This document shows, one piece after another, positions 13,054 to 15,631 of a DNA stretch of 64,000 nt. The first letter of the stretch is position 1, and each line of letters begins with the position of its first letter. The stretch is from Methanoculleus sp. (GTDB taxonomy: Archaea > Halobacteriota > Methanomicrobia > Methanomicrobiales > Methanomicrobiaceae). Made by a program: the position numbers and the translations under genes. The notes under the pieces were generated by a model. The model saw only the letters and a program-made list of their open reading frames with translations, made no database searches and was not told the DNA's origin. The stretch lies in the NCBI GenBank assembly GCA_011048835.1, contig DSDF01000022.1, positions 1 through 64,000 of the forward strand, in the 5' to 3' direction.

Positions 13054-13806
13054 ATGCACACACTCGTACTGCTCCGGCACGGTGAAAGCACCTGGAACCG
13101 GGAGAACAGGTTCACCGGGTGGACCGACGTCGATCTCTCCGAGAAGGGGGTCGAGGAAGCGCACGAGGCGGCGCGGCTGCTTGCCGGCGGGGGGTATACC
13201 TTCGACGTCGCCTACACCTCGGTGCTCAAGCGGGCTATCCGCACCCTCTGGATCGTGCTCGATGATATGGACCTGATGTGGCTGCCGGTGCTGCGGTCGT
13301 GGCGGCTGAACGAACGCCATTACGGGGCGCTCCAGGGGCTCAACAAGGCCGAAACCGCGGAAAAATACGGCGATGATCAGGTGTTTGTCTGGCGCCGGAG
13401 CTACGATATCCCTCCCCCGGCGCTCGAACCCGACGACCCCCGCTCCCCCGCAAACGACCGCCGCTACGCCGATCTCTTCCCTGCGGAACTGCCGCGTACC
13501 GAGTGCCTCAAGGACACGGTGGAGCGCTTCCTGCCCTACTGGCGGGACGAGATTGCGCCGGTTATCCTTGGCGGAAAACGGGTGCTCATCGCCGCACACG
13601 GAAACTCACTGCGTGCGCTGGTCAAGTACCTGGATGCCATCTCCGATGAGGAGATCCCCCACCTCAACATCCCCACCGGCATCCCGCTCGTGTACGAGCT
13701 GGACGATGACCTGCAGCCCATCCGCCATTTTTATCTCGGCGATGCGGAGGCGGCAGCAGCAGCCGCAGAAGCGGTCGCCCGCCAGGGCATGGCAAAACAA
13801 GAATAA
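13054..13806 (+). CDS. gpmA: 2,3-bisphosphoglycerate-dependent phosphoglycerate mutase
   Basis: Interconverts 3- and 2-phosphoglycerate in glycolysis and gluconeogenesis. The 250 residues match the bacterial dPGM type: [10 protein letters not shown] with the phospho-histidine, [31 protein letters not shown] with the catalytic Glu, and [11 protein letters not shown] with the second histidine. Most archaea use the unrelated cofactor-independent enzyme, so a dPGM suggests acquisition from bacteria (inference). The last 20 residues are alanine-rich and end in AKQE. A strong AGGAGG ribosome site precedes the ATG. A T8 tract follows the stop. Confidence 0.94.
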
Positions 13807-13858: not shown

Positions 13859-14317
13859 TCAGATTTCGCAGCGAAGCCCGATTTTGGCGAGCACGCGCGC
13901 GGCCGCGTCGATGCCCCCGTCGAGGTAGACGGCGCCGATCAGCGCCTCCATGCACTCGGCGAGCACGCGCCCCGACGTCCAGACCCCCTGCGCCTCCTCC
14001 CCCTTGCCCCAGTACACGTATGTTTCGACCGACAGCTGTTCGGCGAGACGCCGCAGGACGGTCATATTGACGCAGTTGGTCTTGCGGTTGGTGATCAGCC
14101 CCTTGTCGTGCTCCCCGGCAGCGACAAGAGACTGGATGACCACCACGTCGATGACCGCATCCCCCAGGGTGGCGAGAGCGTCCATGTGCGCCGCCGGATC
14201 AAGCCCCCGCTCCTTGGCATAGGCGAGCCTGGTCAAGGCGCGGATGAGCAGGCGGCGATCGGAGAACGAGTACCCCATCGCCCGCTCGAGACCGGAAGCG
14301 TCATGCGGCTGGCGCAT
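13859..14317 (-). CDS. Stand-alone RNase III-domain protein with altered active site
   Basis: A 152-residue protein made of one RNase III catalytic fold and no double-stranded-RNA-binding domain. MGYSFSDRRLLIRALTRLAYA is the first helix. The signature box usually reads ERLEFLGDAVL; here it reads MDALATLGDAVID (about residues 45-57), so two acidic positions are changed (Glu to Asp, Glu to Ala) while the GD aspartate is kept. The second box reads LAECMEALIGAVYLDGG, with Asp to Glu and the final Glu kept. It may cleave RNA weakly, bind metal differently, or only bind RNA. The gene ends 24 bp upstream of the cyclophilin stop in the same direction order, so the pair is probably co-transcribed. Confidence 0.8.
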   Translation of the reverse strand: MRQPHDASGLERAMGYSFSDRRLLIRALTRLAYAKERGLDPAAHMDALATLGDAVIDVVVIQSLVAAGEHDKGLITNRKTNCVNMTVLRRLAEQLSVETYVYWGKGEEAQGVWTSGRVLAECMEALIGAVYLDGGIDAAARVLAKIGLRCEI

Positions 14318-14341: not shown

Positions 14342-14830
14342 TCAGAGGACTTCAGCGCGCTCGATGACCGCTTTTTTTATGGGGCGGGCCGCACGGTCGG
14401 TTTTCAGGGCGCCGATGGCGTCCACCACGTCCATTCCCTCGACCACCTTCCCGAACACGGGGTGCGCGTACGGGGTAGAGGGATTGTCCCAGTCGAGATA
14501 GGTATTGTCCACCATATTGATGAAGAACTGGCTCCCCCCGGTGTTTGGCTGTCCGGTGTTGGCCATGGCAATGGTGCCCCGGACGTTGGAGTGGCCCTTC
14601 ACCTTTTCGTCGGGGATTGTGTAGCCGGGCCCGCCCGTGCCGTCGCCTTTCGGGCACCCCGCCTGGATCATAAAGTCCCTGATCACGCGGTGAAAACCGA
14701 TCCCGTCATAAAAACCTTCCCGGACCAGTTTTTCGAAATTTCCTGCAGTGACGGGCATATCGTCAAAAAGCTCGATGATGATGTCGCCCATGTTCGTGTG
14801 CAGTGCCACCTTCGAGGTAGTATCACTCAT
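14342..14830 (-). CDS. Peptidyl-prolyl cis-trans isomerase, cyclophilin type
   Basis: A cytoplasmic single-domain cyclophilin of 162 residues that speeds proline isomerisation. Visible motifs are [44 protein letters not shown] with the catalytic Arg and Phe, [15 protein letters not shown] and [17 protein letters not shown]. No signal peptide or extra domain is present. The ATG at 14830 (MSDTTSK) has GGTGA six bases upstream and is preferred to an in-frame GTG three codons earlier. It lies upstream of the RNase III-domain gene. Confidence 0.95.
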
Positions 14831-14902
14831 CTGTTTCACCGTACCCTATGGATTGGTCGCAGGAGGCAAAAAAAGGAGCCCCCGGCAGGGATCCCCCCGC
14901 CC

Positions 14903-14913: not shown

Positions 14914-14989
14914 TATCACGAAAAATATTAATCTCCCATCACCCAAGTGAGCTTCACTGGAGCGTGGGAGGATGCAACGGGAGCGGGCG

Positions 14990-15631
14990 ATGCACGTGGT
15001 CTACAGCCTTCAGGGCCTGGTGCTGCTCTTCTCCCTTGTCACGTTCATGACAGGCGATTCCGGCCATGCGGCATCGGCTGCAATCGTCTTTGCCGTCACC
15101 CTCGTTCCCTATGCCCTCGAACAGCGGCACGAGGTAGTGTTCGAACCACCGGTGTACCTCGCCATATTCACCGCCATCTACCTGCACGGGGTGGGGGATC
15201 TGATGGGCTTCTACGACGATCTCCACCCGTACTTCGACAAGATCGCCCACGGTACCTCCGCCGCCATCATCACCATGCTCGCACTGGTGCTCGTGCTGCT
15301 CCTCGACCGCTCCAACCGCCACCCGCTCGAGGGAAAGATAATCTTCATCGGCATCGTCAGCATGACCATTACGCTGGGGGCGCTCTGGGAGGTCACGGAG
15401 TTTGCCGTCGACCAGATTTTTTCCACCACGCTTCAGCGGGGGCTCGACGACACCATGTTTGATCTGTGCTTCGATATCATCGGAGCGCTCGTCGCCGGCA
15501 CCGGCGGATACCTCTACCTGGCCGCTCTGCCAAGAAAACAGCTGGAAGGACGCTTTTTCCAGGAGCGGGGGGTGCCGAACAACCAGCACGGCCCGGGTGC
15601 GGCAGAAGGGAAGGTGATCGCAACCGAATAG
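14990..15631 (+). CDS. Multi-pass membrane protein, DUF2238/YjdF-like
   Basis: About 213 residues with five or six hydrophobic helices: LQGLVLLFSLVTFMTG, AASAAIVFAVTLVPYAL, VYLAIFTAIYLHGVGDLMG, AIITMLALVLVLLLD, IFIGIVSMTITLGALWEVTEF and a last one around FDIIGALVAGTGGYLYLAAL. The segments YFDKIAHGTSAAI and GALWEVTEFAVD, with conserved Asp, His and Glu at membrane borders, resemble DUF2238 proteins, whose function is unknown. The ATG at 14990 is preferred because the ATG at 14972 is directly next to the GGAGG ribosome site. Confidence 0.7.
   Translation: MHVVYSLQGLVLLFSLVTFMTGDSGHAASAAIVFAVTLVPYALEQRHEVVFEPPVYLAIFTAIYLHGVGDLMGFYDDLHPYFDKIAHGTSAAIITMLALVLVLLLDRSNRHPLEGKIIFIGIVSMTITLGALWEVTEFAVDQIFSTTLQRGLDDTMFDLCFDIIGALVAGTGGYLYLAALPRKQLEGRFFQERGVPNNQHGPGAAEGKVIATE

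Follow-up and report, generated by a model that had tools for sequence, protein, structure and literature searches.

The locus and its gene content

The window, i.e. the whole stretch of 64,000 nucleotides analysed here (contig DSDF01000022.1 of a Methanoculleus sp., order Methanomicrobiales, phylum Halobacteriota), contains on its minus strand a gene for a protein of 152 amino acids, which the initial annotation had described as an RNase III domain protein lacking an RNA-binding domain (Table 1). Both parts of this description are borne out. The open reading frame is real, and in profile searches its product exceeds the curated cut-offs of PF14622 (E = 3.3e-23, 82.7 bits, cut-off 35) and PF00636 (E = 1.9e-15, 57.9 bits, cut-off 27), the RNase III domain being the only domain found by Pfam. 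The predicted fold (AlphaFold2 monomer model with a mean pLDDT of 94.4, based on an alignment of 59 rows that combined the window protein with public loci) is matched best by the solved structure of the Campylobacter jejuni RNase III (3o2r; Z = 21.9, 1.6 Å over 140 residues, 28% identity), and the 50 structure matches listed comprise Dicers and RNase III from bacteria and yeast as well as mitoribosome chains and an RNase III-like protein from a plant. By profile as well as by fold the protein belongs to the RNase III superfamily. A double-stranded RNA-binding domain (dsRBD, PF00035) is absent from it according to both the Pfam scan and the model, in which the C-terminus follows directly on the last helix of the nuclease domain. 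The nearest public protein, from 'Methanomicrobiaceae archaeon' M17C-73-02, is 86% identical. This protein and its counterparts in other genomes are referred to as family A.

Table 1. Features at the family A locus and codons of the active-site positions.
Feature	Position	Strand	Remarks
Histidine phosphatase family protein (PF00300)	13054-13806	+	convergent with the family A gene, about 50 bases apart
RNase III-domain protein, family A, 152 aa, without dsRBD	13859-14317	-	ORF, Pfam, AlphaFold2, structure matches
E124 codon (Aquifex E110, catalytic Glu kept)	13946-13948	-	E in 37/37 family A rows
E121 codon (Aquifex D107 position)	13955-13957	-	E in 37/37 rows
K72 codon (E. coli E65 position)	14102-14104	-	K in 37/37 rows
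D53 codon (Aquifex D44, catalytic Asp kept)	14159-14161	-	D in 37/37 rows
T50 codon (Aquifex F41 / E. coli F42)	14168-14170	-	T in 31, V in 6 of 37 rows
A49 codon (Aquifex E40 position, acid lost)	14171-14173	-	A in 36/37, C in 1/37 rows
D46 codon (Aquifex E37 position)	14180-14182	-	D in 37/37 rows
Cyclophilin-type peptidyl-prolyl isomerase	14342-14839	-	directly upstream, same strand, 24-base gap
219-aa ORF	14972-15631	+	no Pfam match at 1e-5; membrane-like by eye

With respect to the gene neighbourhood, the cyclophilin gene adjoins family A in five of 22 other loci (G001, G002, G015, G030 and G045) and the histidine phosphatase gene is matched in three of 22, and no conserved neighbour or operon partner was found among the 22 loci besides that of the present genome. 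Flanking genes likewise vary among the loci of a second neighbourhood set (14 loci, four of them without a family A call).

A reduced but fixed active site

Residues of the active site were compared in an alignment of 138 rows, comprising 37 rows of family A from 37 genomes, 13 and 11 rows of the archaeal families B and C, respectively (see below), and 77 rows of bacterial RNase III. Duplicate loci (L001, L004, L005 and L028) were dropped before the residues were counted, and the family A copy of G027, which is split over frames, is absent from the 37 rows. Positions are named after the Aquifex residues which we take to correspond to them (E37, E40, D44, D107 and E110), and Aquifex F41, equivalent to E. 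coli F42, is presumably a dimer contact. The E. coli equivalents of the catalytic positions are given as E38, E41, D45, D114 and E117 in the accessible text of PMC8708148.

In place of the usual ERLEFLGD the protein reads DALATLGD, meaning that E37 is changed to D46, E40 to A49 and the phenylalanine to T50, and that D44 is kept as D53, just as the initial annotation had stated in pointing to two altered acids and a retained last one. Its further claim of a Glu in place of the second-site Asp likewise holds (D107 to E121), and E110, which it did not mention, is kept as E124. In the AlphaFold2 model D46, A49 and D53 share one predicted helix (residues 46-66), and E121 and E124 share another (residues 117-145). 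As D46, D53, E121 and E124 are invariant in family A and A49 is replaced only once (Table 1), the changed site is a kept feature of the family and not the result of local decay. Moreover, family A is under purifying selection, with dN/dS values of 0.28-0.33 within the genus and of 0.13-0.22 among four f4 genomes. The values between f1 and f4 pairs reach 0.45, which counts against an active enzyme.

Among the 77 bacterial rows, many of which are near-copies of each other, E40, D44 and E110 are held throughout, F41 in 75, and position 107 is occupied by D in 64, by N in eight and by other residues in five; in family C rows with an LGD motif, position 107 is D in only 19 of 55. Position 107 is hence variable outside family A as well, in keeping with an active enzyme. 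The combination found in family A, namely D37, A40, D44, E107 and E110 together with K at the E. coli E65 position and T or V at F41, is a distinct and fixed state that is identical to neither Mini-III nor class 1 RNase III. Since F41 is T or V in all family A rows, and Y or F in Mini-III, the dimer contact may have been remodelled or lost, which would argue against a standard homodimer.

RNase III families in the order

The accessible texts of earlier papers describe RNase III as bacteria-specific (PMC7694759), as absent from archaea (PMC8708148) or without described activity there (PMC8155600), as transferred into some Euryarchaeota (PMC4571572), or as sporadic in archaea, Pyrococcus having a protein annotated with an RNase III domain (PMC7758197). 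The initial annotation had likewise called it rare in archaea, which agrees with the lack of a PF00636 match in all four archaea known among 14 controls (M. jannaschii, H. volcanii, S. acidocaldarius and M. acetivorans) but not with its presence in 56 of 60 genomes comprising this one and its relatives. As far as the accessible and mainly open-access literature on archaea goes, no study of family A and no paper using the phrase 'archaeal RNase III' was found.

Of the 232 genomes of the order, counting the present one, 108 from 19 genera carry family A; 106 of them have matches of at least 150 bits and two have fragments (G027 and G110). Outside the order no family A match above 114 bits was found in 392 genomes drawn from the phylum. 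In 16 of 28 f1 genomes family A is the sole PF00636 match, and the proteins of 20 more loci obtained from weaker matches all lack, as judged by eye, an acid at E40.

Besides family A, the order and the phylum harbour further single-domain RNase III-like proteins (family B, e.g. L123-L130 and L325-L338). As in family A, E40 is mostly replaced in their 13 rows (R in four, C in three, S in two, A and Q in one each), but D is found in two; position 107 is E in nine and position 41 is T in 12, and both families fall into one clade. However, family B does not itself form a clade and its site is less fixed, with E110 changed to K in two rows and to Q in one, and D44 changed to G in one. Degenerate-looking paralogues of this family are L126, L128 and L131, with Q or K at E110 and, in L131, G at D44. 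In four f10 genomes from the phylum (L335-L338) a family B-like domain follows another domain within one frame of 422 to 526 amino acids, the preceding part being AIR carboxylase-like (PF00731 by Pfam) in the one frame that was scanned.

The present genome encodes a second RNase III-domain protein of about 239 amino acids (family D, G000:C22:11155-11418; L002 and L143), whose N-terminal part has no assignment and whose site, TLAWIGD ... TLVES, is Mini-III-like in having A at position 40 and T at position 107. Genomes of f1, f3 and f4 also yielded similar proteins, and a comparison of family D with solved structures yielded nothing clear.

Family C, finally, consists of RNase III proteins of the same order that carry a PF00035 dsRBD (e.g. 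L132-L142 and L213-L302). In contrast to family A they keep E40, mostly read ERLEFLG[D/N] and form a separate clade. PF00035 is found in three of the four family C proteins scanned, the protein from G001 being truncated, and in 21 of the 60 genomes, where most of the 24 matches lie in family C frames, the remaining few being in G040, G050 and G017, within short frames. Among the 28 f1 genomes it occurs only in G017, and the search of the present genome for a dsRBD partner acting in trans gave no PF00035 match.

Comparison with class 1 RNase III and Mini-III

With class 1 RNase III (rnc; E. coli, Aquifex, C. jejuni) family A shares the fold (Z = 17-22), D44, E110 and the glutamate at the E. coli E100 position, the latter in 37 of 37 rows. 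However, it lacks the dsRBD, has lost E40, F41 and the E. coli E65 acid, and stays below the cut-off of the NCBIfam equivalog TIGR02191 (91.4 versus 166.25 bits). That all 77 bacterial rows (near-copies included) have at E40 the acid that family A has lost speaks against an active enzyme, as do the changes at the E. coli E38 and E65 positions to D and K, and E. coli mutants with G, D or R at the F41 position are inactive. As listed in Table 1 of PMC8708148, E. coli E38A, E41A and D114A have weak in vitro activity in excess Mg, with E41A binding poorly, whereas E117K/A/Q have no activity and E38V and E65A are inactive in vivo.

Mini-III (MrnC, class 4; B. subtilis 4oun and 6tnn; 1u61 and 2gsl), like family A, is a single nuclease domain without dsRBD, and its wild type has Ala at E40 with D44 and E110 kept. 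It is thus the active enzyme with the same gap that the initial annotation had itself named as speaking against its reading of the site. Since Mini-III is active with Ala at this position, E40 is dispensable in a known enzyme, and its loss alone is no sign of a dead or exotic one. Of the suggestion that the protein works in an unusual way or binds RNA without cutting, the argument from E40 therefore falls away, while the combined state of the site is indeed distinct. The PDB rows of Mini-III read ALAYIGD, ALAYMGD or ELAFLGD at the first site and T-A-[FL]-E-A at the second. Of the B. subtilis chains in the PDB, 4oun has Q at E110 and 6tnn has N at D44. According to the accessible text of PMC5141509, the exchange E106Q at the E110 position renders the B. 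subtilis enzyme fully inactive.

The likeness raises the question of whether family A might be a genuine Mini-III with a role in pre-23S rRNA trimming like that of the B. subtilis enzyme. Both are of similar length (152 versus 143 amino acids), lack a dsRBD and have Ala at E40 with D44 and E110 kept, B. subtilis ALAYIGD and TAFEAL corresponding to ALATLGD and ECMEAL. In a profile comparison ALATLGDA is paired with ALAYIGDA, and ECMEALIG with TAFEALLG, but with a probability of 42.5% (E = 0.00026) this does not, any more than the tree, group family A with known Mini-III by sequence. Moreover, the Mini-III rows have L at 37, T at 107 and Y or F at 41, where family A has D, E and T or V. In the tree, family A forms a clade with archaeal B and D (support 98/99), with Mini-III, family C and the bacterial proteins outside, which suggests that family A is not Mini-III, although the three Mini-III rows and family D sit on long branches (4.85 and 4.82, respectively) and the deep order is unsure given these branches and the few columns. 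Since, in addition, relatives keep bulge-helix-bulge stems at the 23S flanks (12 of 12 genomes), with which later trimming would still be compatible, we regard a true Mini-III as very improbable.

A second alternative would make family A a pseudoenzyme that binds structured RNA or the ribosome without cutting, in the manner of the inactive mitoribosomal mL44 or of plant RNC1. The accessible text of PMC8708148 calls RNC1 inactive. In line with this alternative, the acids at E40 and the E. coli E65 position are lost and the dimer phenylalanine is gone. The mitoribosome chains among the structure matches (Z = 15.2-17.5) are presumably mL44, and against the mL44 model PF22935 (cut-off 27) two rows of family B reach 25.3 and 27.2 bits, but a search of family A itself with this model gave nothing at E <= 1. 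Moreover, all 37 rows share D44, E110 and the acids at positions 37 and 107, a set of four that one would not expect RNA binding by itself to preserve, while Mini-III is active without E40 and D107 (PMC5141509, accessible text). Taking both sides into account, a pseudoenzyme is unlikely, albeit the foremost competitor of an active family A.

Excision of rRNA

A replacement of EndA by family A in rRNA excision was considered and rejected as its main role, as relatives keep both EndA and the bulge-helix-bulge stems, which makes primary rRNA excision an unlikely function. EndA (PF01974) is present in 59 of 60 genomes, and at the 23S flanks, where the motif was found in all genomes inspected, 0 to 2 of 100 shuffles were as good; no 23S match was found in the present genome, so the stems were read in relatives. 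At the 16S flanks the motif is clear in nine of 12 genomes, and the other three (G055, G030 and G018, all with family A) have 7-base loops there. Their flanks (L303, L304 and L308) can be read as this motif if its 4-bp core is taken to contain one G.A mismatch; the four pairs of the core are kept in six other genomes with family A and in three without it.

A family C with asparagine at D44

Family C is found in 115 of the 232 genomes of the order. Its motif was read in 96 rows from 93 of these; of the 22 genomes outside this set 21 lack family A, and the match in G103, which has it, is short and lies close to the end of a contig. The motif is uncovered in G158 and in a second copy in G040 (L190, G040:C9), which is broken by an in-frame TGA. 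Asparagine replaces D44 (LGN instead of LGD) in 39 rows, comprising all motif-covered f4 rows, G001 (f1) and G032 (f6).

By comparing the presence of family A with this motif it is evident that the two co-occur, an association that is new: the 93 genomes divide into 32 with A and LGN, one with A and LGD (G017), 54 with LGD but no A, five with LGN but no detected A, and one uncovered, so that D44 is changed to N in 32 of 33 family C genomes read with A and kept in 54 of 59 without it. The association appears strong but goes back to few events, since the tree places a single D/N change (branch support 95/49, 96% of bootstrap trees) and the rows are thus not independent. Some weight is added by the f5 genera, of which g30, g34, g36 and g37 have A without C and other genera LGD-type C without A. 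A strict complementarity of A and C was rejected in view of G017 (91% complete, 4% contamination) and of the five genomes with LGN-type C but no detected A (G098, G108, G109, G112 and G124). G140 has an A-like protein of 140.1 bits, i.e. below the 150-bit line, alongside an LGD-type C.

These data might reflect a division of labour in which family A supplies the cutting domain and the D44-to-N family C the dsRBD, either in a heterodimer cutting one strand or with C as an RNA-protecting competitor. Apart from the co-occurrence (32 genomes against one), all 39 LGN-type rows keep E37, E40 and E110, 37 of them also D107, and these proteins are under purifying selection in the eight f4 rows tested (28 pairs; dN/dS 0.125-0.314, median 0.19, none above 0.314). 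The same exchange has moreover been introduced in the laboratory, both into Aquifex RNase III (2ez6) and into Mini-III (chain 6tnn). However, no family C match at E <= 1e-20 was obtained in 74 of the 108 genomes with family A, among them the present one, the change is one event, and LGN-type C may still cut, because the Aquifex D44N structure contains, by its title, a cleaved product and E. coli D45N is listed with weak rather than no activity when Mg is in excess (PMC8708148, Table 1). We therefore consider it rather doubtful that RNase III has been split such that A cuts, LGN-type C keeps the dsRBD and cuts weakly or not at all, and the pair forms an asymmetric one-strand cutter, with A acting alone in the present genome.

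Proposed function and implications

The reading we prefer, with a probability of roughly 0.6, is that family A is an archaeal RNase III without dsRBD that most likely cuts dsRNA or hairpin RNA with a divalent metal. It is carried by D44 and E110, which are never lost in the family A rows read, even though some family B rows lose one or the other; confidence is held back by the changes at F41 and the E. coli E65 position in all family A rows. In such an enzyme, D53 and E124 would be the indispensable metal ligands, supported by E121 and D46 and, as in Mini-III, without a carboxylate at E40, and the nuclease domain alone would bind the RNA. Substrates might be structured RNAs other than those of primary 16S and 23S excision, still apparently performed by EndA, such as sense-antisense duplexes or rRNA at a later trimming stage. 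Catalysis, dimer state and substrate are inferred.

This order of methanogens has several RNase III families, one of which is a single domain with a fixed, reduced active site. As the acid it lacks is missing family-wide and also in working Mini-III, family A is probably a genuine enzyme, and it belongs to a domain of life in which RNase III activity has hardly been tested. It makes archaeal dsRNA processing testable and offers a comparison, set up by nature, of the acids that an RNase III can do without, and the natural D44-to-N family often found beside it provides a second clean test. If RNase III were indeed split between the two, this would, by the accessible texts of the papers found, be the first time that such an activity is demonstrated in archaea.
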